Origin: Bradyrhizobium septentrionale | GTDB lineage: Bacteria; Pseudomonadota; Alphaproteobacteria; Rhizobiales; Xanthobacteraceae | DNA: 64,000 nucleotides | Assembly (NCBI RefSeq): GCF_011516645.4 | Contig: NZ_CP088285.1 | Span: 5,846,501 to 5,910,500, forward strand | Reading direction: 5' to 3' | In this document: positions 34,392 to 46,446 of the stretch, piece after piece | Numbering within the stretch: position 1 is the first letter of the stretch | How the letters are laid out: every line of letters begins with the position of its first letter | Program-made: the position numbers and the translations under genes | The notes under the pieces: model-generated | Told to the model about the DNA's origin: nothing | What the model saw: only the letters and a program-made list of their open reading frames with translations | Databases searched by the model: none

Positions 34392-35306
34392 ATGACCCAG
34401 TTCAACGAGACCGAGCTCACCACCGCCGTCATCCGCAGCTTCGACCAGACGCCCGATCCGCGGGCCAAGTTCCTGTTGCAGGAACTGGTGAAGTCGCTGC
34501 ACGATTATGTGCGCAGGACCGATCTCACCTTCGAGGAGTGGGACCACGCGATCGGCTTCCTGACCCGCACCGGACAGAAGTGCACCGACATCCGCCAGGA
34601 GTTCATCTTGCTGTCCGACGTGCTCGGCGTGTCGATGCTGGTCGATGCGGTCAACCACCGCGATCGCGACGGCGCGACCGAGACCACCGTGCTCGGCCCG
34701 TTCTATGTCGGCGAGCACAAGGTGGCGCCGCATGGCACCGATATCTCGGCAAGCCTGCCCGGCGAGCGCATGTTCGTGCAGAGCCGCGTCACCGACCTCA
34801 CGGGCAAGCCGCTGGTCAATGTGCCGGTCGATGTCTGGCACGCGGACGACGACGGATTCTACGACTCGCAGAAGCCGAGCTATGCCACCGAAGGCCCGTC
34901 GTCGCGGGCGCGCTTCGTCACCGATGCCGACGGCCGCTTCTTCTTCCGCACCATCGTGCCGTGCAGCTATCCGATTCCGACCGACGGTCCGGTCGGGCAG
35001 ATGATCACGCAGACCAACCGTCACCCGATGCGGCCGGCGCATGTGCACTTCCTGGTCAATGCCAAGGGCCATGAGCCGCTGATCACGCACGTATTCATGG
35101 AAGGCGACAAATATATCGACTCCGACGTCGTGTTCGGCGTGAAGGACGAGCTGATCGCCAAGGTTGAACGGCGTACCGATCCTGACATGCCCGATGGCCA
35201 GCGCTCGGATGGTCCGTGGCATCTGATGAGCTACGAATTCCATGTGAAACCCGGTGGCGGAATGGCGCCCGCGCCGCTCGGCACCAAGGTCGCCGAGGAC
35301 GCCTGA
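34392..35306 (+). CDS. Intradiol ring-cleavage dioxygenase, hydroxyquinol 1,2-dioxygenase-like
   Basis: 304 residues, the usual length for catechol/hydroxyquinol 1,2-dioxygenases, with the N-terminal helical dimer domain (FDQTPDPRAKFLLQELVKSLHDYVR). The Fe(III) site is visible: Tyr in ETTVLGPFYV, Tyr in CSYPIPTDGPVG, and His-x-His in RHPMRPAHVHFLV. The LGPFYV and YPIPTDGPVG forms fit the hydroxyquinol/chlorocatechol branch better than plain catechol enzymes. The product would be maleylacetate (from hydroxyquinol) or muconate (from catechol). The ATG at 34392 is weakly supported by AAGGGAAACGCCGAG. Link to the gamma-resorcylate genes 8 kb away is inference. Confidence 0.85.
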   Translation: MTQFNETELTTAVIRSFDQTPDPRAKFLLQELVKSLHDYVRRTDLTFEEWDHAIGFLTRTGQKCTDIRQEFILLSDVLGVSMLVDAVNHRDRDGATETTVLGPFYVGEHKVAPHGTDISASLPGERMFVQSRVTDLTGKPLVNVPVDVWHADDDGFYDSQKPSYATEGPSSRARFVTDADGRFFFRTIVPCSYPIPTDGPVGQMITQTNRHPMRPAHVHFLVNAKGHEPLITHVFMEGDKYIDSDVVFGVKDELIAKVERRTDPDMPDGQRSDGPWHLMSYEFHVKPGGGMAPAPLGTKVAEDA

Positions 35307-35328
35307 TCGCTATCGTCGAAGCCGTCTG

Positions 35329-35359
35329 CTCAATTCTTGTGCGTCGCACAAGAATTGAG
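35329..35359 (+). terminator. Perfect 14-base-pair hairpin after the dioxygenase gene
   Basis: CTCAATTCTTGTGC (35329-35342) pairs exactly with GCACAAGAATTGAG around a GTC loop, 22 bases after the dioxygenase stop. There is no T-run directly behind it. A second GC-only stem (AGCGCGCG with CGCGCGCT) follows at 35378-35402. Together they probably end the dioxygenase transcript. Confidence 0.6.
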
Positions 35360-35456
35360 CGAATCGCAAATTTTGGGAGCGCGCGGAAAGTTCGCGCGCG
35401 CTGCGACATGTTGCGCAAGACTTTGCAATAAAATCAATTTTTGCACTGCGGTAGCT

Positions 35457-35472
35457 TGGCACAAGGCTTGAA
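35457..35472 (+). promoter_or_regulatory. Sigma-54-like promoter candidate upstream of the nitrate transporter
   Basis: TGGCACAAGGCTTGAA matches the sigma-54 consensus TGGCAC-N5-TTGC at the -24 half and at the TTG of the -12 half, but has A instead of the strict C after TTG. The distance to the binding-protein ATG is about 180 bases. NtrC/RpoN control of nitrate uptake is common in rhizobia. The imperfect -12 element keeps this weak. Confidence 0.3.
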
Positions 35473-35650
35473 TAGTCGGTGCCGACGCCATTGAAGCCGT
35501 CCCTCGAGGCCACCCCATCGGATTTCTGACGCCGCCAGACCGGGGCCTCCCCGGTGCATGCCCTTTTGCGCCCTGCGCGCGTCGCCACCCGAAGGAGGGC
35601 GCTCGACGCAAAGACGCAACACCGCAACGCAACGACGCAAAGGACGACCG

Positions 35651-36967
35651 ATGACCAAGCCCACCAATAAGCCCTCAGGCCGTGGCCTCAGCCGCCGTCA
35701 GCTCCTGAAGGCGAGCAGTGGCGCCGCCGCGCTGCTCGCTGCAGCCAGGCTCAACTTTCCCGCCGGTGCATTCGCGCAAGGTGCAGGCCCCGAGGTGAAG
35801 GGCGCCAAGCTCGGATTCATTGCGCTGAGCGACGCCGGTCCGCTGTTCGTCGCCAAGGACAAGGGCTTGTTCGCCAAGTATGGCGTGCCCGATGTCGACG
35901 TGCAGAAGCAGGCCTCATGGGGCACCACGCGCGACAATCTCGTGCTCGGCTCCGAGGGCAACGGCATCGACGGCGCGCATATCCTGACCCCGATGCCGTA
36001 TCTGATCTCGGCCGGCAAGGTGACGCAGAACAACCAGCCGACGCCGATGTACATCATGGCGCGGCTCAATCTCGATGCGCAGTGCATCTCGGTCGCAAAG
36101 GAATATGCCGACCTCAAGCTCTCGACCGACGCATCGCCGTTCAAGACGGCGCTGGAAAAGAAGAAGGCGTCGGGCAAGGCGGTGAAGGCCGCGATGACCT
36201 TCCCGGGCGGCACCCATGATCTGTGGATACGCTATTGGCTGGCCGCAGGCGGCATCGATCCCGACAAGGATATCGAGACCATCGTGGTGCCGCCGCCGCA
36301 GATGGTCGCCAACATGAAGGTCGGCACCATGGACTGCTTCTGTGTCGGCGAGCCCTGGAATCTGCAGCTGATCCACCAGGACATCGGCTACACCGCGGTC
36401 AATACCGGCGAGATCTGGAACAAGCATCCGGAGAAGTCGTTCGCGATGCGCGCCGCCTGGGTCGACAAATATCCGAACGCGGCGAAGGCCATCCTGATGG
36501 CGGTGATGGAAGCCCAGCAATGGGCCGACAAGGCCGAGAACAAGCAGGAGCTCGCGGCGATCATGGCCAAGCGGCAGTGGATCAACTGCCCGGTCGAGGA
36601 CGTCTATGACCGCACTGCGGGCAAGTTCGACTACGGCATCGGCAAGGTGGTCGAGAATTCACCGCACATCATGAAGTACTGGCGCGATTTCGCGTCATAT
36701 CCGTTCCAGAGCCACGAGCTCTGGTTCCTCACCGAAGACATTCGCTGGGGCAAGTTCGAAGCGGGATTCGATACCAAGGGCCTGATCGGCAAGGTCAACC
36801 GCGAGGACATCTGGCGTGCCGCCGCCAAGGATCTCGGCGTGCCCGCATCCGAGATTCCAACCTCGACCTCGCGCGGCAAGGAGACCTTCTTCGACGGCAA
36901 GGTGTTCGATCCGGAAAATCCGGCCGCATACCTCAAGTCGCTGTCGATCAAGCGCGTGGACGTCTGA
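35651..36967 (+). CDS. nrtA: Nitrate-type ABC transporter substrate-binding protein (NrtA/CmpA family)
   Basis: 438 residues. The N-terminus has a twin-arginine-type signal (SRRQLLKASSG, then an Ala/Leu core and a cut near AFAQ). The body shows LGFIALSDAGPLFVAKDKGLFAKYG, RWIRYWLAAGG-like LWIRYWLAAGGIDPDKDI, and PPPQMVANMKVGTMDCFCVGEPWN, the pattern of NrtA. The family binds nitrate, nitrite, cyanate or bicarbonate. It is first in the operon with the permease and ATPase, and a globin gene follows, which favours nitrate. The ATG at 35651 follows AAAGGACGACCG. Confidence 0.85.
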   Translation: MTKPTNKPSGRGLSRRQLLKASSGAAALLAAARLNFPAGAFAQGAGPEVKGAKLGFIALSDAGPLFVAKDKGLFAKYGVPDVDVQKQASWGTTRDNLVLGSEGNGIDGAHILTPMPYLISAGKVTQNNQPTPMYIMARLNLDAQCISVAKEYADLKLSTDASPFKTALEKKKASGKAVKAAMTFPGGTHDLWIRYWLAAGGIDPDKDIETIVVPPPQMVANMKVGTMDCFCVGEPWNLQLIHQDIGYTAVNTGEIWNKHPEKSFAMRAAWVDKYPNAAKAILMAVMEAQQWADKAENKQELAAIMAKRQWINCPVEDVYDRTAGKFDYGIGKVVENSPHIMKYWRDFASYPFQSHELWFLTEDIRWGKFEAGFDTKGLIGKVNREDIWRAAAKDLGVPASEIPTSTSRGKETFFDGKVFDPENPAAYLKSLSIKRVDV

Positions 36968-37031
36968 TTTGAGCAGGGCTGCGCGCCCCTCGCGCGCGGC
37001 CCACCCATTTGACCACGGAGATACTTTGTCG

Positions 37032-37934
37032 ATGTCAATGCCTGCCATGAAGACCGAACTCACCGCAGCGATCGTTCCGGCTGCCGCAACCGCGGCGCCG
37101 GTGGTGACGATGACGCCCAAGCGGCCGCCGCGTGCCGAGACATATGCCAAGATGGCGAAGGAGGCGGCAGTGCGCGTCGTGCCGCCGCTGATCGTACTCG
37201 CGCTGCTGCTGCTCGTCTGGGAGCTGGTGTGCCGCCGCGCCGGCTCGGCCCTGCCGCCGCCCTCGCGCGTGTTCAAGGATACCAAGGAGCTGATCCTCGA
37301 TCCGTTCTTCGATCACGGCGGCATCGACAAGGGTCTGTTCTGGCACCTGTCGGCGAGCCTGCAGCGCGTCGCGCTGGGCTATTCGCTGGCGGCGATCGCG
37401 GGCATCGCGCTCGGCACGCTGGTCGGCCAGTCGGTCTGGGCGATGCGCGGGCTCGATCCGCTGTTCCAGGTACTGCGCACGATCCCGCCGCTCGCGTGGC
37501 TGCCGCTGTCGCTCGCCGCATTCCGCGACGGCCAGCCCTCGGCGATCTTCGTCATCTTCATCACCTCGGTGTGGCCGATCATCATCAACACTGCGGTCGG
37601 CATCCGCAATATCCCGCAGGACTACCGCAACGTCGCCGCCGTGGTGCAGCTCAATCCGCTGGAGTTCTTCGCCAAGATCATGATCCCGGCGGCCGCGCCC
37701 TACATGTTCACCGGCTTGCGCATCGGCATCGGCCTGTCATGGCTCGCGATCGTCGCCGCCGAGATGCTGATCGGCGGCGTCGGCATCGGCTTCTTCATCT
37801 GGGATGCGTGGAATTCCTCGCACATCAGCGAAATCATCCTGGCGCTGTTCTATGTCGGCATCATCGGCTTTGTGCTCGACCGCCTGATCGCGGGATTGGG
37901 CAAGATCGTGACCCGCGGCACGGCTGCGAACTGA
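37032..37934 (+). CDS. nrtB: Nitrate-type ABC transporter permease (NrtB family)
   Basis: 300 residues with a Pro/Ala-rich cytoplasmic tail to about residue 45 and about six helices. The permease core has LQRVALGYSLAAIAGIALGTLVG, QVLRTIPPLAWLPLSLAAF and the EAA-type loop RNVAAVVQLNPLEFFAKIMIPAAAPYM, all standard for NrtB/SsuC/TauC. The ATG at 37032 lies 12 bases after GGAG; a TTG at 37026 has better spacing and would add two residues. It is 64 bases after nrtA and 11 before the ATPase gene. Confidence 0.85.
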   Translation: MSMPAMKTELTAAIVPAAATAAPVVTMTPKRPPRAETYAKMAKEAAVRVVPPLIVLALLLLVWELVCRRAGSALPPPSRVFKDTKELILDPFFDHGGIDKGLFWHLSASLQRVALGYSLAAIAGIALGTLVGQSVWAMRGLDPLFQVLRTIPPLAWLPLSLAAFRDGQPSAIFVIFITSVWPIIINTAVGIRNIPQDYRNVAAVVQLNPLEFFAKIMIPAAAPYMFTGLRIGIGLSWLAIVAAEMLIGGVGIGFFIWDAWNSSHISEIILALFYVGIIGFVLDRLIAGLGKIVTRGTAAN

Positions 37935-37945
37935 GGGGACAAGTC

Positions 37946-38740
37946 ATGCAGGCCTATCTGAAGCTCGACCACATCGACAAGATTTTTACCCGCGGCAGCG
38001 CCACCACGGAGGTTCTGAAGGACATCAACCTGACGATCCAGAAGGGTGAATACGTCTCGATCATCGGCCATTCCGGCTGCGGCAAGTCGACCTTGCTCAA
38101 CATCGTCGCCGGCCTCACCGGCACCACCAATGGCTGCGTGCTGCTGGAGAACCGCGAGGTCAATTCACCGGGGCCCGACCGGGCCGTGGTGTTCCAGAAC
38201 CACAGCCTGCTGCCGTGGCTGACCGTCTACGAGAACGTCAAGCTCGGCGTCGACAAGGTGTTTGCCAAGACCAAGAGCAGGGCGGAGCGCGACGCCTGGG
38301 TGATGCACAATCTCAACCTGGTGCAGATGGCGCATGCCAAGGACAAGCGGCCGAGCGAGATTTCGGGCGGCATGAAGCAGCGCGTCGGCATCGCGCGTGC
38401 GCTCGCCATGGAGCCGAAGGTGCTGCTGCTCGACGAGCCGTTCGGCGCGCTCGACGCGCTGACCCGGGCGCATCTGCAGGATTCGGTGATGGCGCTGCAT
38501 CAAAAGCTCGGCAACACCATCCTGATGATCACCCACGACGTCGACGAAGCCGTGCTGCTGTCGGACCGCATCGTCATGATGACCAACGGTCCGAGCGCAC
38601 GGATCGGCGAGGTGCTCGAGGTGCCCTTGGTGCGTCCGCGCAAGCGGCTCGAGCTCGCGAACAACCCCGGCTATCTGAAGTGCCGGCAGCGCGTGCTCGA
38701 ATTCCTCTATGAGCGCCACAGCTTCGTCGAGGCGGCTTGA
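37946..38740 (+). CDS. nrtD: Nitrate-type ABC transporter ATP-binding protein (NrtD family)
   Basis: 264 residues. Walker A GHSGCGKST is near residues 39-47, the signature ISGGMKQRVGIARAL near 139, and Walker B LLLDEPFGALDALTR near 162. The PGPDRAVVFQNHSLLPWLTVYENV Q-loop is typical of NrtC/NrtD/TauB. There is only one ATPase gene, without the NrtA-like fusion of cyanobacterial NrtC, so it probably works as a homodimer. GAGGGGACAAGTC stands before the ATG. The longer frame from 37229 is a shadow of nrtB. Confidence 0.87.
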   Translation: MQAYLKLDHIDKIFTRGSATTEVLKDINLTIQKGEYVSIIGHSGCGKSTLLNIVAGLTGTTNGCVLLENREVNSPGPDRAVVFQNHSLLPWLTVYENVKLGVDKVFAKTKSRAERDAWVMHNLNLVQMAHAKDKRPSEISGGMKQRVGIARALAMEPKVLLLDEPFGALDALTRAHLQDSVMALHQKLGNTILMITHDVDEAVLLSDRIVMMTNGPSARIGEVLEVPLVRPRKRLELANNPGYLKCRQRVLEFLYERHSFVEAA

Positions 38741-40447: not shown

Positions 40448-41647
40448 TTATGCAGCGAGGTTCGGACGCTCGGGAAAAGGCGAGTCGTACAGCCACGCCA
40501 GGTTATCGCAGAACTGCTCGAGGCTGGTGTTGCGGATTAGCTGGTTGCGCAGCAACGCGTGCACGCCGGCCGGATGATAGACATGGGTGCCGAGTTCACG
40601 GGCCTGCAACTGGACCCGTGCCGTGCGCATCAGCCGAACCTGGCGGTATTTCTCCAGCGCGTGCGCGAAGGCATCAGGCGTTGCGCCCAGTAATTCGGCG
40701 AGCCAGACCGCGTCCTCCAGCGCCATGCAGGCGCCTTGCGCGAAATATTGCAGCATCGGATGCGCGGCATCGCCGAGCAGGGCCACGCGTCCGTCGACCC
40801 AGTGTTCGGTTGGATCGCGATCGCAGGTCACCCACGCCTTCCAATCCTTGCCGTGGTGAATGATCGCCTTGGCGCGTGGATGAACGTCGCGAAAGCCCTC
40901 CAGCACCTCCTCATGGGTGACCGGCCTCGCAGCAAAGGCTTCCGCCGGATCGTTGTGACAGGTGATCGCGAGGTTGAACACCTTCCAGCCCGAGAGCGGA
41001 TAGTGCACCAGATGGCACTTGGCGCCGGCCCATAGGGTCGCGGCGTTCCAGCGCAGATCCTCCGGCATCTGCTCGGTCGGAATCACCGATCGATAGGTGG
41101 TATGGCCCGCGATCCGCGGCGGGCCGTCATCGACCATCTGCTGGCGAATCCGGGACCTCAGCCCGTCGGCGCCGATCAAGAGACGGCCTTTGACACGCTC
41201 GCCGGATTTCAGCCGCGCGACGACGGCCTCGCCGTCCTGGTCGTATCCGACGACATCGCAATCGCTGCGCAGCGTGATGCCGGGATGCGCCTCGCAGGCG
41301 CGCAGGAAGATGCCGTGCAGGTCGCCGCGATGGACCACCGCATAGGGATTGCCGAAGCGCCGGCGGAAATAGCTGGTCAGGTCGATGCTGGTGATCTCTT
41401 CGGCCGAGATCGCGTCCATCAGCCGCAACTGGTCGATGAACACCGCGATCGCGCGGGCGGCATCGCCGAGATCGAGATGGTCGAAGGCATGGAAGGCGTT
41501 TGGGCCGAGCTGGATGCCGGCGCCGATCTCCTGATAGCGCGGTGCGCGTTCCAGGACGGTGACCTGAAATCCCTTGCGGGCCAGCGCGACCGCCGCGGCC
41601 AGTCCGCCGATGCCGCCGCCTGCAATGATGATCGGATCCTTGCGCAT
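40448..41647 (-). CDS. FAD-dependent aromatic monooxygenase (3-hydroxybenzoate 6-hydroxylase / salicylate hydroxylase type)
   Basis: 399 residues, a single-component class A flavoprotein hydroxylase. The FAD loop GGGIGGLAAAVAL is at residues 9-21, the DG motif in LLIGADGLRSRIR, and the GD motif in VALLGDAAHPMLQYFAQGACMALEDA. The overall pattern is close to 3-hydroxybenzoate 6-hydroxylases. It uses NAD(P)H and O2 to hydroxylate a phenolic acid. It lies just downstream of marR on the minus strand and beside gamma-resorcylate decarboxylase, so resorcinol or a hydroxybenzoate is a likely substrate. That choice is inference. Confidence 0.85.
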   Translation of the reverse strand: MRKDPIIIAGGGIGGLAAAVALARKGFQVTVLERAPRYQEIGAGIQLGPNAFHAFDHLDLGDAARAIAVFIDQLRLMDAISAEEITSIDLTSYFRRRFGNPYAVVHRGDLHGIFLRACEAHPGITLRSDCDVVGYDQDGEAVVARLKSGERVKGRLLIGADGLRSRIRQQMVDDGPPRIAGHTTYRSVIPTEQMPEDLRWNAATLWAGAKCHLVHYPLSGWKVFNLAITCHNDPAEAFAARPVTHEEVLEGFRDVHPRAKAIIHHGKDWKAWVTCDRDPTEHWVDGRVALLGDAAHPMLQYFAQGACMALEDAVWLAELLGATPDAFAHALEKYRQVRLMRTARVQLQARELGTHVYHPAGVHALLRNQLIRNTSLEQFCDNLAWLYDSPFPERPNLAA

Positions 41648-41668
41648 GTCCTCTCCCTGACGTTGGTG

Positions 41669-42241
41669 CTATTTCCTCGGTATCTTGCGGCGGCGGCCGG
41701 CCGTGCCTTTGGCGTCGGACTTCGCCTCGCGAACGTCTTTCGGCACCTTCGGCGGGGGCACCTCGATCATGCCGGCCTCGACCTCGTGCTCCAGCCGGTC
41801 GAGATTCTTGTAGAGCTCGACCAGCACCTGCTTGAGCTCGGCGGCTTCCTTGGCCGACATCGCACCGGTTGCGACCTCTTCATAGTGTTGCGCGATCGGC
41901 ATCAGCCGGTCTGCGAGCTCGGCGCCCTTCGGCGTCAGCGCGACCTGCAGGCTGCGCTGGTCGTTCTCAGGCCGGTCGCGCGTCAGGAGGCCGGCGCGGC
42001 TCATCTCGGCAACGATGCGCGACAAGGTCGAGACATCGGCCGACGTCAGTTCGGCGATTTCGCCGAGCCGCAGCGGCTGTCCCTGCTCCGAGAGTGCGGC
42101 GAGCACGCGGTACATCGGCAGCGTCAACTTCTCGTGACGGATGACGCGGACGAACAGATCGCCCATCCGCACGCCGAGCCGGGCGAGCAGATAGGGCAGC
42201 GAATTCGAAAATCGGTACATGGGCTTAGGTCCGGGCTTCAT
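41669..42241 (-). CDS. MarR-family transcriptional regulator
   Basis: About 190 residues. The winged helix covers about residues 35-110 (TLPMYRVLAALSEQGQPLRLGEIAELTSADVSTLSRIVAEM, then LTRDRPENDQRSLQVALTPKG). The tail is a helix followed by a Lys/Arg-rich end (AGRRRKIPRK). The frame is open to 42520; starts at 42241 and 42220 are the sensible ones and neither has a strong ribosome-binding site. It is divergent from the decarboxylase gene and 21 bases before the monooxygenase, which suggests it represses both sides until an aromatic acid binds. Confidence 0.85.
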   Translation of the reverse strand: MKPGPKPMYRFSNSLPYLLARLGVRMGDLFVRVIRHEKLTLPMYRVLAALSEQGQPLRLGEIAELTSADVSTLSRIVAEMSRAGLLTRDRPENDQRSLQVALTPKGAELADRLMPIAQHYEEVATGAMSAKEAAELKQVLVELYKNLDRLEHEVEAGMIEVPPPKVPKDVREAKSDAKGTAGRRRKIPRK

Positions 42242-42310
42242 TTCTGGCGGGAGGCGTCCGCCCGGAATAGCCGCCGGTCCTCGCACCGACAACAGTTGCA
42301 TATCAATCAT

Positions 42311-42336
42311 TTGCATTCGCAACTTTCTCATTGACA
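42311..42336. promoter_or_regulatory. Divergent aromatic promoter: TTGC-N4-GCAA dyad next to a TTGACA box
   Basis: TTGCATTCGCAA (42311-42322) is a short dyad that could be half of a MarR operator. TTGACA at 42331-42336 is a perfect -35 hexamer on the plus strand, 69 bases before the decarboxylase ATG; the -10 element is not clear. The position between the divergent MarR and catabolic genes fits an operator-promoter. Confidence 0.45.
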
Positions 42337-42404
42337 AATAATTGGACCGGATGTTTTGCTCTGTCAACACGGAAACGGGGGCACGAGCCCGAAGGGAGCA
42401 ACCG

Positions 42405-43379
42405 ATGCAGGGAAAGATCGCGCTGGAGGAGCACTTCGCCATCGAGGAGACGGTTCGCGACAGCGCGGGCTTCTCGCCGGCCGACGACTGGGTCGAGCTC
42501 AAGGCCCGGCTGCTCGACATTCAGGACCGCCGCCTTGCCGAGATGGATGCGCACGGCATCGAGCTGATGCTGCTGTCGCTCAACGCGCCGGCGATCCAGG
42601 CGATCCCCGACCGCAGCCGCGCGCTGGAGCTGTCGCGCCGCGCCAATGATTTCCTCGCCGAGCAGGTGGCGCGGCGGCCGCAGCGCTTCCAGGGCCTGGC
42701 CGCGCTGCCGATGCAGGATCCGGAAGCTGCCGCGCGCGAGCTCGATCGCTGCGTGAGTGCGCTGAAATTCCGCGGCGCGCTCGTCAACGGCTTCAGCGAG
42801 GTCGAAGGCCACGACGGCGCCGTCTACTATGATCGCAAGGAGTTCTGGCCGTTCTGGTCGGAGGTCGAGCGCCTCGACGTTCCGTTCTATCTCCACCCGC
42901 GCAACCCGCTGGCGAAGGATGCCGCGATCTACGAGGGCCATCGCTGGCTGATGGGGCCGACCTGGGCCTTCGGCCAGGAAACCGCGGTGCACGCGCTGCG
43001 CCTGATGGGCTCGGGCCTGTTCGATGCTCATCCGCGGCTGCAGATCATCCTCGGTCACATGGGCGAGGGCCTGCCGTACTCGATGTGGCGGGTCGACAAC
43101 CACAACAAGTGGATGCGGGCGCAGAACATCTATCCCGCCAGGCGCAAGATCGCCGACTACTTCCGAGAGAATTTCTACATCACGACGTCAGGCAATTTCC
43201 GGACGCAAACCCTGATCGACGCGATGCTCGAGATCGGCGCCGACCGCATCCTGTTCTCCGCCGACTGGCCGTTCGAGAACATTGACCACGCCGCCGAATG
43301 GTTCGACACCGCGACCATCGCCGAGGGCGACCGTTTCAAGATCGGCCGCGACAACGCCCGCAGGCTGTTCAAGCTTTAA
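42405..43379 (+). CDS. Gamma-resorcylate (2,6-dihydroxybenzoate) decarboxylase
   Basis: 324 residues of the amidohydrolase-superfamily decarboxylases. The Rhizobium gamma-resorcylate decarboxylase ligands are all in register: Glu8 and His10 (MQGKIALEEHF), His164 (FYLHPRNPL), His218 (ILGHMGEG) and Asp287 (FSADWPFENIDHA). It would convert 2,6-dihydroxybenzoate to resorcinol and CO2 without a cofactor other than the metal, reversibly. The ATG at 42405 follows GAAGGGAGCAACCG. It opens the plus-strand operon with an aromatic acid carrier and DoxX. A salicylate decarboxylase activity, known for relatives, cannot be excluded. Confidence 0.9.
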   Translation: MQGKIALEEHFAIEETVRDSAGFSPADDWVELKARLLDIQDRRLAEMDAHGIELMLLSLNAPAIQAIPDRSRALELSRRANDFLAEQVARRPQRFQGLAALPMQDPEAAARELDRCVSALKFRGALVNGFSEVEGHDGAVYYDRKEFWPFWSEVERLDVPFYLHPRNPLAKDAAIYEGHRWLMGPTWAFGQETAVHALRLMGSGLFDAHPRLQIILGHMGEGLPYSMWRVDNHNKWMRAQNIYPARRKIADYFRENFYITTSGNFRTQTLIDAMLEIGADRILFSADWPFENIDHAAEWFDTATIAEGDRFKIGRDNARRLFKL

Positions 43380-43438
43380 GCGCGCGATTCCAACCTGCCG
43401 CAGAGCAGGGCGCATCATCAGTTGCAAGGGAGGAAACC

Positions 43439-44797
43439 GTGAGCACTTCGCCCGACATCGACGTGCACGAGGAATTGTCCGGTGCGGCCATCGGCCGGCT
43501 GCACATCATGCTCGGCATCCTGATCACGCTTATCACGCTGTTCGACGGTTATGACACGTTCAATCCCGCCTATGTCATCCACTACGTCGCAAAACCCTGG
43601 GGATTGTCGCCGAGCCAGGCGGGCTTCCTCGTGAGCTCGGGCCTCGTCGGATTCCTGTTCGGGGCGGTCGGTCACGGCACGGTCGCCGACCGGCTCGGCC
43701 GGCGCGGCACGCTGCTGGCCGGCCTGTGGGTCGTCAACCTCTTCACGCTTTTGACGGCAACGGTCGCGAGCGACTTCTGGAGCTTCTGCGCGCTGCGCTT
43801 TGCGACCGGCCTCGGCCTCGGCGTGCTGCTGCCGCTGGGCACGACCTTCGTCAACGAACTGGCGCCGCGCCGTGTCAGCAACGCGTTCTCGTTGTGGGGC
43901 GTGACGCTGGGCTGGTCGCTCGGCGGCGTCTGTGCCGGGCTCGTCGGCGTCTATCTGACGCCGCATTACGGCTGGCAGATTCTGTATTATCTCGGCGCGC
44001 TGTCGATCCCGCTGACATTCGTGGCGCACGCGGTGCTGCCCGAAAGCCCGCAATTCCTGGCGGCGCGGCGCCGCACCGAGGAGCTGCGCACGCTGCTCGC
44101 GCGGCTGCGCCCGGAGCGGGCCGCCGCCTATCGCAACGCGACCTTTGCATCAGTCGATGCCGGCAGCGTGCCGAATCCGATCGCGGCGCTGCTGAGCCCG
44201 CGCTATCGCCGCGTCTCGCTGACGATCTGGATCACCGCGTTCCTGAGCCTGTTCGCGATCTTCGGCCTCACCGGCTGGATCCCGACGGTGATGCAGAAGC
44301 GCGGCGAGACGTTTGCGGCGTCGTTCGGCTTCGGCGCACTGATGCAGGCGATGTCGTTCGTCGGCGGGCTCACGCTTGCGATGCTGGCCGACCGCAATCT
44401 GTCGCTGACGCCGCGCTACCTCGCCACATGGTGGCTGAGCGGCGGCATTGCCGTGCTGGCGCTGGTGTTCGTCAGCGGTCACGGCGTCAATCTCGCGATC
44501 GTCGCCATCGCCGGCTTCTGCATCATCGGCGCCCAGCATGTGCTCAACAACTTCACCGCAGGCTCGTACGAGACGCTGCTGCGCGCCAGCGGCGTCGGTA
44601 TGGAATTGGGCGTCGGCCGGGTCGGCGCGATCCTCGGTCCCTACGTGATCGGACTGCTGCAACAGATGACCGGCGGCCCCGACATCGTGTTCTGGGTGAT
44701 CGGCGGTGCCGCGATCGTCGGCGCGTTCGCGATCGGCTCGCTTGGCCTCGCCGCCGCGCCCCGGCCCGCGGCCATCGATACGGCGCCCGCGGAGTGA
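43439..44797 (+). CDS. MFS aromatic acid:H+ symporter (AAHS family)
   Basis: 452 residues with about 12 helices. Helix 1 carries LFDGYDTFNPAYV, the D-G-x-D signature of AAHS carriers (PcaK, BenK, GraK type), and the loop 2-3 motif is GHGTVADRLGRRGT. The GTG at 43439 follows GGAGGAAACC, far better than the longer frame from 43298, which overlaps the decarboxylase. It starts 59 bases after the decarboxylase stop. The obvious substrate is the aromatic acid used by that enzyme. Confidence 0.9.
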   Translation: MSTSPDIDVHEELSGAAIGRLHIMLGILITLITLFDGYDTFNPAYVIHYVAKPWGLSPSQAGFLVSSGLVGFLFGAVGHGTVADRLGRRGTLLAGLWVVNLFTLLTATVASDFWSFCALRFATGLGLGVLLPLGTTFVNELAPRRVSNAFSLWGVTLGWSLGGVCAGLVGVYLTPHYGWQILYYLGALSIPLTFVAHAVLPESPQFLAARRRTEELRTLLARLRPERAAAYRNATFASVDAGSVPNPIAALLSPRYRRVSLTIWITAFLSLFAIFGLTGWIPTVMQKRGETFAASFGFGALMQAMSFVGGLTLAMLADRNLSLTPRYLATWWLSGGIAVLALVFVSGHGVNLAIVAIAGFCIIGAQHVLNNFTAGSYETLLRASGVGMELGVGRVGAILGPYVIGLLQQMTGGPDIVFWVIGGAAIVGAFAIGSLGLAAAPRPAAIDTAPAE

Positions 44798-44853
44798 CGA
44801 CGGATCCATATCAAACGCCGCATAGGCGAGTTTAGAACCCACGGAGACAACGC

Positions 44854-45300
44854 ATGTCCACGACAACTCACATTGCGGCCGATGACAAAGCCGCGCGGCT
44901 TTCCCCATCCTGGGTTCTGCTGTTTGCGCGGCTCGCCATCGCGCCGCTGTTTCTCTACAGCGGCATCGGCAAGCTGATGGCGTTCTCGGCGACCGCCGGA
45001 CGCCTCGGCGGCGCCGACGGCATCGGCGCGGTTCTTGCGGCCGGCGCGACGGCGGTCGAGCTCGGCTGCGGCGCGGCGCTCGTGCTCGGCCTGTTCGCAC
45101 GTCAGGCGGCCTTGGTCCTGTTCCTGTTCACGATCGCCGCGACGCTGATGTTTCACAATTTCTGGGCCGCGCCGGAGGCGCAGGTCTTCACCCAGACCAT
45201 CAACTTCCTGAAGAATCTCGGCCTGCTCGGCGCGCTTGCGATGATCGCGGTCTACGGGCCCGGGAGCTACGCGGTGAATGTGGGCACGAAGCGCACCTAG
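44854..45300 (+). CDS. DoxX-family membrane protein
   Basis: 148 residues with four hydrophobic helices (ARLAIAPLFLYSGIGKLMAF, then VELGCGAALVLGLF, LFLFTIAATLMFHNFW, and LKNLGLLGALAMIAVYG), the standard DoxX topology. Function in bacteria is poorly known; relatives have been linked to thiosulfate:quinone reduction and redox stress. GGAGACAACGC precedes the ATG, and the gene is 56 bases after the carrier, so it is probably the last gene of the aromatic operon. Confidence 0.85.
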   Translation: MSTTTHIAADDKAARLSPSWVLLFARLAIAPLFLYSGIGKLMAFSATAGRLGGADGIGAVLAAGATAVELGCGAALVLGLFARQAALVLFLFTIAATLMFHNFWAAPEAQVFTQTINFLKNLGLLGALAMIAVYGPGSYAVNVGTKRT

Positions 45301-45360
45301 CTTCGCCCGACGATCAGCGTTCGGGGCACGCCGAGTCCAGCCGCCACCGATGCCAGCGGG

Positions 45361-46446
45361 TCAGCGGTCGGAATGCATCTTCTCGAGAAACTCCTTCACG
45401 CCGCTGACGGCGCCGGTATTCGAAGCGACATAGCCGGGCAGGGCGCCCACCGCCTTGTGAAACTCGCTGCTCTTCATGATGTCGAGCACCCGCTGCATCG
45501 GCTCGGTCTCGAGGAACGCACGCTTGCAGACGAAGAAATAATCTTCCGTGAGCAGGCGAATGAAATCGAGGCCGAACTGCCGGGCGGCGGCCTCGACGCC
45601 AAAACTGGCATCCGCCATGCCGCTCGCGACATAGGCGGCGACCGCGGCGTGGGTGAACTCCATGTGCTGGGCGCCGTTGATCTTGCTTTCCGGGATCTTG
45701 TGCTGCGCCAGCAACTGATCGAACAGCATCCTTGTGCCGGAATCATGGTCGCGGTTGACGAAGCGGGCCTTGCGGTCGACCAGGTCCTTCAGCGAGGTGA
45801 TCTTCAAGGGGTTGCCGCGCTTGACCATCAGGCCCATCTCGCGCGTGACGAAATTGATCAGGCGGTCCTCGCGCGGATCGAGCCATTCCCGGCAGGCCTT
45901 GATGCCCTGCGCCCGCAACTCGCCGCGCGGCAGATGCACGCCGGAGAGATCGCAGGCGCCCTGCGCCAGCGAGACCAGCGAGTTCTGGTTGCTGACATAG
46001 CGCAGATCGACGCCGACGCCGCCCTCGCGGTCGAGGAATTCGCGCAGCTTGGAGACCGCGAAGCCGTGGCTGGCATGGACGCGGATCACCGACGGCCGCT
46101 GCTCCAGGAACGGCTTGATCTCGGTGACCAGTTCCTGCGCGAGGTTCTCGAGTTGCAGCCCGAGCCGCGCCTGCATGCGTTCGCCGGCCCACACCAGCTT
46201 CTCGCCGAACGGCGTCAGCTTCGAGCCCTTGCCGCGCTGTGTCTCCACCAGCGGCACGCCGAAGAATTCGGTCCACTGCTCGATCAGGTTCCAGACATGG
46301 CGATAGGACAAATGCGCGTCAATGGCGGCGCTGGTGATCTTCCCGGTCTTCCTGATCTCGTTGAGGATGCCGAGCATCACGACCGCGGTTTGCGGTGAGT
46401 TCTCTTTGCGAAAGCGCCAGACGGTCTCGATCTCGATCTGCAGCAT
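45361..46446 (-). CDS. One-component regulator: ModE-like winged helix fused to a periplasmic-binding-type ligand domain
   Basis: 361 residues. Residues about 1-105 are a LysR/ModE-like winged helix (TAVVMLGILNEIRKTGKITSAAIDAHLSYRHVWNLIEQW, then VETQRGKGSKLTPFGEKL). From about 120 a PBP-like domain follows (VIRVHASHGFAVSKLREFL; NQNSLVSLAQGACDLSGVHLP; FVNRDHDSGTRMLFDQLL), the type found in molybdate or tungstate binding proteins. The ATG at 46444-46446 is used; an upstream start four codons earlier is possible. It is divergent from an aldehyde dehydrogenase with two palindromes between them, so it likely controls that gene, perhaps in response to an oxyanion or small acid. Confidence 0.85.
   Translation of the reverse strand: MLQIEIETVWRFRKENSPQTAVVMLGILNEIRKTGKITSAAIDAHLSYRHVWNLIEQWTEFFGVPLVETQRGKGSKLTPFGEKLVWAGERMQARLGLQLENLAQELVTEIKPFLEQRPSVIRVHASHGFAVSKLREFLDREGGVGVDLRYVSNQNSLVSLAQGACDLSGVHLPRGELRAQGIKACREWLDPREDRLINFVTREMGLMVKRGNPLKITSLKDLVDRKARFVNRDHDSGTRMLFDQLLAQHKIPESKINGAQHMEFTHAAVAAYVASGMADASFGVEAAARQFGLDFIRLLTEDYFFVCKRAFLETEPMQRVLDIMKSSEFHKAVGALPGYVASNTGAVSGVKEFLEKMHSDR

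Follow-up and report, generated by a model that had tools for sequence, protein, structure and literature searches.

A conserved gamma-resorcylate gene module in Bradyrhizobium with a proposed single-component resorcinol hydroxylase

Which enzyme hydroxylates resorcinol in a gamma-resorcylate (2,6-dihydroxybenzoate) gene cluster that encodes no two-component oxygenase? This question is raised by a 64,000-nucleotide stretch of the Bradyrhizobium septentrionale genome (contig NZ_CP088285.1, positions 5,846,501 to 5,910,500; hereafter the window), in which a gamma-resorcylate decarboxylase gene lies divergently to the gene for a class A flavin hydroxylase from the same family as 3-hydroxybenzoate 6-hydroxylase. 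From a comparison of related loci we consider it probable (about 0.8) that this hydroxylase makes hydroxyquinol from resorcinol, replacing the two-component oxygenase in a conserved gamma-resorcylate module. The gene content and order, their conservation, the shared operator-like site and the separate clade of the hydroxylase are all evident from the sequences.

The five-gene module and its proposed pathway

An earlier note on this DNA had described a divergent five-gene module, and all five genes are indeed present. The minus strand carries the hydroxylase, proposed here to be a resorcinol 4-hydroxylase (40448..41647; PF01494, NF006021), and, 21 bp away in the same direction, a MarR-family regulator (41669..42220; PF01047), whose start is placed by conservation at 42220 in replacement of 42520. 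The plus strand carries the decarboxylase (42405..43379), a major facilitator superfamily (MFS) carrier (43439..44797; PF07690) and a DoxX-family membrane protein (44854..45300; PF07681). A 184-bp divergent promoter/operator region (42221..42404; alignment of 22 intergenic regions) lies between the two arms. The carrier, which judging from the sequence likely starts at the GTG codon at 43439, most resembles aromatic acid:H+ symporters (AAHS), the AAHS subfamily model TIGR00895 being its best NCBIfam match at 264 bits, below the model cut-off of 419. The source genome measures 10.4 Mb, and its cluster most resembles those of other Bradyrhizobium, the decarboxylases of L009-L015 being 95-98% identical to that of the window.

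The decarboxylase, starting at 42405, aligns over its full length with two solved gamma-resorcylate decarboxylases (PDB 3s4t, 546 bits, E = 2e-163; 2dvt, 540 bits, E = 1.3e-161). The five metal-site residues that the earlier note had reported to be in register (E8, H10, H164, H218 and D287, which we take to be the metal/catalytic positions of this enzyme) were all recovered, and by these comparisons the protein is a gamma-resorcylate (2,6-dihydroxybenzoate) decarboxylase. Two adjacent, divergently placed homologues of this decarboxylase, 66% and 52% identical to it, occur in a remotely related genome from the same class (L160, at 7722 and 8895).

Neither a maleylacetate reductase nor a two-component oxygenase was found within the window's cluster, as the same note had stated, and the genome search that it proposed for a two-component resorcinol hydroxylase retrieved no close relative of the oxygenase GraA, the best match genome-wide being only 36% identical. 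The two HpaB-type oxygenases (PF11794) of the genome were rejected as the gra enzyme, because GraA of locus L056 is an acyl-CoA-dehydrogenase-type oxygenase (GraD being the flavin reductase).

In the pathway that we propose, the carrier would take up 2,6-dihydroxybenzoate and the decarboxylase would turn it into resorcinol. The one-protein NAD(P)H/FAD hydroxylase, presumably recruited from the 3-hydroxybenzoate 6-hydroxylase family, would then add a hydroxyl group para to one of the phenols to give hydroxyquinol. Para hydroxylation is what its relatives do on 3-hydroxybenzoate, and the same chemistry is plausible on resorcinol, since resorcinol is 3-hydroxybenzoate with a hydroxyl replacing the carboxyl group. 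Hydroxyquinol would be cleaved to maleylacetate, which would be reduced to 3-oxoadipate; in the window strain the ring-cleavage dioxygenase and the reductase would be supplied from outside the cluster. MarR may repress both arms from their shared intergenic region.

Complete clusters and exchange of the hydroxylase

The order of the five genes is kept in 17 Bradyrhizobium loci and in one of Rhizobium (sp. P38BS-XIX, L030), and DoxX is retained in all 18 of them. In four (L009 from B. mercantei, L014 from B. viridifuturi, L011 and L013) a dehydrogenase of the iron type and an intradiol dioxygenase lie between carrier and DoxX, a position that in the window consists of a 56-bp spacer only (44798..44853); in L017 the dioxygenase alone occupies this position. 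The L009 dehydrogenase is a maleylacetate reductase by comparison with the solved structure 3w5s (435 bits), and the dioxygenase is of hydroxyquinol type (297 bits to 8r2x, against 123 bits for the best catechol-type match). The seven-gene cluster, with reductase and dioxygenase in the same slot and DoxX likewise kept, recurs in L152, from a less closely related genome of the genus, and in genome G500 (L156). We take L156 to come from another order, because G500 is placed in one genus with G422, and over 19,001 bp the G422 locus L157 shows complete identity with L028, a locus of Rhodospirillales. Six loci thus encode decarboxylase, reductase and ring-cleavage enzyme together, and the conversion of resorcinol to hydroxyquinol is therefore the sole step left for the hydroxylase. 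A rearranged cluster in genome G141 (L151, 4351-10236) consists of genes for a LysR regulator, an FAD oxidoreductase, an MFS carrier, the hydroxylase and the decarboxylase, all except the LysR gene sharing one strand; MarR is absent from this cluster and DoxX was not seen in it. Despite the altered gene order, hydroxylase and decarboxylase remain same-strand neighbours.

What occupies the place of the hydroxylase elsewhere was assessed on named loci, the best 80 of 225 stretches encoding the decarboxylase. Within 6 kb of this gene, 18 loci possess a hydroxylase of the window type, 47 a GraA-type oxygenase, none both and 15 neither. The two types exclude each other (Fisher test, 3e-9), with the proviso that related loci are not independent and that some contigs end early. 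Three of the 15 remaining loci, all from Roseomonas (L055, L060 and L073), encode a third type, an MhpA-type single-component flavin hydroxylase of 511 residues. MhpA-type enzymes match NF004829 at 519-535 bits (526 in L055, 535 in L060) and share with the window hydroxylase a local match of 76 residues only. The gene immediately precedes that of the decarboxylase and shares its strand (L055 3758-5293, L060 8408-9943, L073 8408-9940 and, outside Roseomonas, L153 6646-8184). Genome G101 has both a window-type cluster (L152) and an MhpA-type cluster (L153), each with reductase and dioxygenase, and no locus among the 80 holds two of the three types. Three kinds of enzyme thus occupy the slot that links the decarboxylase with the hydroxyquinol dioxygenase, which supports the assignment of this slot to resorcinol hydroxylation.

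The other 12 loci with neither main type comprise eight viewed by their gene calls (L031, L032, L044, L058, L063, L076, L083 and L084) and L026-L029. L031 and L063 retain flavin reductase, maleylacetate reductase and dioxygenase, with no GraA on their short contigs; in L076 and L084, the one neighbouring gene named in each is not an aromatic hydroxylase of these kinds. In L026, L027, L028 and L029 the decarboxylase is 77-86% identical to that of the window, neither main hydroxylase occurs in the fetched flanks, and a matching MarR is present in three of the four.

The regulatory region points in the same direction. The MarR-decarboxylase interval of the window remains conserved as far out as L156 (22 aligned rows; 4 loci gave no region) and contains an operator-like palindrome, TTGCA-N2-TGCAA, present in the window with one mismatch (42311..42322). 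Upstream of MarR, 14 of the 18 module loci carry it without mismatch (17 of 18 with at most one), as do 21 of the 40 two-component loci that have a MarR match (33 of 40 with at most one). When every palindrome with arms of 5 bases and a gap of 0-8 was ranked (9,216 in all), it came first in the module set and, scored separately, in the two-component set, and it stayed first (7 of 23) once two-component loci with a GraA at least 80% identical to that of L056 were dropped. The 65 of 80 loci with a MarR match, 1.32 Mb in total, contain 62 exact copies of the motif, and 38 of these fall within the 21 kb that lie upstream of MarR. It is carried by the MhpA-type loci L055, L060 and L153 as well; upstream of MarR in L152 and L017, no copy within one mismatch was found. 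Because the palindrome is common to module, two-component and MhpA-type loci, MarR and its putative site were probably retained while the hydroxylase was exchanged. Another inverted repeat, TTGACAA ... TGTCAA (window 42331-42367), is conserved across most module loci and might represent two overlapping divergent promoters.

One of the nearest described relatives of this module is the gra cluster of Rhizobium sp. MTP-10005, reportedly described by Yoshida and colleagues in 2007. The window's module shares with it and with its look-alikes among L035-L088 the decarboxylase (70-75% identical in those loci), an MFS carrier, hydroxyquinol as the presumed end product, and MarR with the same upstream palindrome. 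It differs in having a single-component class A flavoprotein where the gra type has a two-component oxygenase with a flavin reductase, and in the absence of reductase and dioxygenase from the cluster. The MhpA-type clusters (Roseomonas, L153) likewise combine a single-component class A hydroxylase with MarR and decarboxylase, but their hydroxylase belongs to another subfamily and is differently placed. Single-component flavoprotein resorcinol hydroxylases have reportedly been described from Pseudomonas putida ORC (Ohta and Ribbons, 1976) and Corynebacterium glutamicum (Huang, 2006). What the window hydroxylase would share with these enzymes is the conversion of resorcinol to hydroxyquinol by a single-component flavoprotein; to our knowledge, neither belongs to the 3-hydroxybenzoate 6-hydroxylase family or is paired with a gamma-resorcylate decarboxylase. 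We found no published account of the single-component variant in the open-access literature, which is weak evidence given that subscription journals lay mostly outside the search.

Hydroxylase family, gentisate-linked paralogues and rival readings

The window hydroxylase passes the cut-off (459) of NF006021, the NCBIfam model of 3-hydroxybenzoate 6-monooxygenase, with 551 bits. Since a gentisate-linked paralogue (556 bits) and the L156 enzyme (533 bits) pass as well, the model cannot separate module enzymes from gentisate-linked ones. Gene context does so. A search of 146 genomes of the genus located the hydroxylase in 60 places. Among the 19 with at least 74% identity, 18 are within 2 kb of the decarboxylase and none is within 5 kb of a gentisate dioxygenase, the one place apart from the decarboxylase being a 219-residue match in G121. 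The 41 places with 65-69% identity show the reverse: none is near the decarboxylase and 40 are near a gentisate dioxygenase (the exception, in G090, is at a contig edge), with maleylpyruvate isomerase also present in all 12 loci inspected (L139-L150). Seen from the decarboxylase, 18 of its 42 places in the genus have the hydroxylase within 2 kb; in a survey of 385 genomes of the class, two of 29 hydroxylase places, the window's own and that of G500, adjoin a decarboxylase.

The tree agrees with this division: in a quick reconstruction from 129 rows, 22 module and 14 gentisate-linked enzymes fall on opposite sides of one branch (SH-aLRT, the Shimodaira-Hasegawa-like approximate likelihood ratio test, 99), and eight nearly fixed positions distinguish the module clade from its gentisate-linked sisters. 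The module clade takes up 54 of the 129 rows, 32 of which are database proteins taken in without gene context. Among the matches listed (120 of 7,712, with truncated names), close relatives go by names such as 3-hydroxybenzoate 6-monooxygenase or salicylate hydroxylase, and none of the names as displayed mentions resorcinol. On plasmids, 17 records match the hydroxylase at E <= 1e-100, with identities of at most 62% among the 15 matches listed.

Several findings weigh against resorcinol hydroxylation, and part of them would suit an ordinary 3-hydroxybenzoate 6-hydroxylase that feeds a gentisate pathway encoded elsewhere and shares MarR because both substrates are hydroxybenzoates. The enzyme resembles the 3-hydroxybenzoate 6-hydroxylase of Rhodococcus (4bjy) in family, length and presumed catalytic residues, and passes the equivalog cut-off; a loss of carboxylate-binding residues is not visible, since H213, Y217 and Q301 (4bjy numbering; presumably the substrate contacts) are shared with the gentisate-linked enzymes. 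A gentisate dioxygenase is encoded somewhere in each of the 18 module genomes of the genus. We had expected module genomes to be without this gene, but 142 of the 146 genus genomes have it, so that its presence fails to discriminate between the readings and speaks slightly against ours. Furthermore, a gentisate-type paralogue is absent (at E <= 1e-120) from 12 of the 18 module genomes, where the module enzyme could therefore double as 3-hydroxybenzoate hydroxylase, and the LysR and FAD oxidoreductase of the rearranged L151 cluster resemble (44% and 64%) genes near the gentisate cluster of the window genome. Unlike the Rhodococcus enzyme, though, that of the window falls in the separate clade and is linked to the decarboxylase and to hydroxyquinol genes instead of gentisate genes, which adjoin it in none of the 18 named loci, just as none of the 19 genus places lies near a gentisate dioxygenase. 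Six module genomes, the window's among them, already have a gentisate-linked second paralogue (67% identical in the window genome and inside its gentisate cluster), and under the gentisate reading L152 and L156 would have no hydroxylase to connect the decarboxylase with the hydroxyquinol dioxygenase. We therefore regard an ordinary 3-hydroxybenzoate 6-hydroxylase as improbable. The earlier note had left two routes side by side: that by which the class A enzyme turns resorcinol into hydroxyquinol gains strong comparative support from the complete clusters, the replacement at the same place and the shared operator-like site, and the gentisate route is disfavoured.

The two steps might also occur in swapped order, the hydroxylase converting 2,6-dihydroxybenzoate to 2,3,6-trihydroxybenzoate and the decarboxylase then releasing hydroxyquinol. 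The end product and the gene set would be the same, and the kept contact residues would fit if they bind the carboxylate. In this order the new hydroxyl group would nevertheless enter meta to the carboxylate, which is not so in the 6-hydroxylation of 3-hydroxybenzoate, and the decarboxylases of module and of two-component loci match named gamma-resorcylate decarboxylases about equally closely; we consider this order quite improbable. The remaining unfavourable findings concern the pathway genes: the carrier-DoxX slot holds the reductase in only 4 and the dioxygenase in only 5 of the 18 module loci, no reductase lies within 6 kb in 14 of them, and a different FAD monooxygenase adjoins a reductase-dioxygenase pair elsewhere in the window genome (C2:5980149, locus L103). 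That monooxygenase, or another enzyme, might hydroxylate resorcinol, the window hydroxylase being unrelated to the pathway. The L103 cluster is present in the genome, but it lies about 90 kb away, its stretch has no TTGCA-N2-TGCAA within one mismatch, and the tight linkage of hydroxylase and decarboxylase would be left unexplained, so that we give this explanation very little weight. As to the dioxygenase, one of hydroxyquinol type occurs somewhere in the fetched flanks of 14 of the 18 module loci.

Resorcinol hydroxylation by the module enzyme thus being favoured, it appears likely that the hydroxylase slot has been refilled more than once (two-component, 3-hydroxybenzoate-6-hydroxylase type, MhpA type) under a kept MarR and site, that the 54-row clade named 3-hydroxybenzoate 6-monooxygenase consists of resorcinol 4-hydroxylases, and that some lineages have shed the ring-cleavage genes and use copies elsewhere. 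If so, Alphaproteobacteria would have a gene family for single-component resorcinol hydroxylase, one enzyme type would have been replaced by others beneath an unchanged regulatory site, and the name of an NCBIfam equivalog would be misapplied to a clade. The eight nearly fixed positions would then offer a small test case for the way in which a flavin hydroxylase exchanges an acid substrate for a phenol.

Ring-cleavage genes outside the cluster and neighbouring genes

In the window's cluster, the loss of reductase and dioxygenase looks recent, because its nearest relative in the tree, L009 (support 94), keeps both. The candidates to finish the pathway are a hydroxyquinol-type intradiol dioxygenase in the window (about 34392..35306, plus strand; start inferred from alignment conservation), the paired reductase and dioxygenase genes at C2:5980149-5982005, and a reductase gene at C2:4965619. 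The first is encoded 5 kb from the hydroxylase gene and has a counterpart upstream of the module in L009-L016 and downstream in L019-L022 and L025. The window contains three matches to the palindrome with at most one mismatch (39435, 42311 and 59631); since none is upstream of this dioxygenase gene, it is probably outside MarR control.

On the far side of the module, a PF00117 glutamine-amidotransferase-like gene found between DoxX and a ModE-like regulator in L009-L013 and L015 (L009 14797-15534) is absent from the window (45300-45361). After the window dioxygenase gene come the binding protein, permease and ATPase genes of an NMT1-like ABC uptake system (34392-38740 with the dioxygenase), and the binding protein gene is also found upstream of the module in L009-L015. 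The second hydroxyquinol cluster of the genome (L103 8578-17351, corresponding to C2:5980077-5988850) encodes maleylacetate reductase, dioxygenase and a 634-residue FAD monooxygenase (PF01494 and PF21274), together with genes that, by the look of their sequences, resemble a branched-chain-type ABC uptake system.

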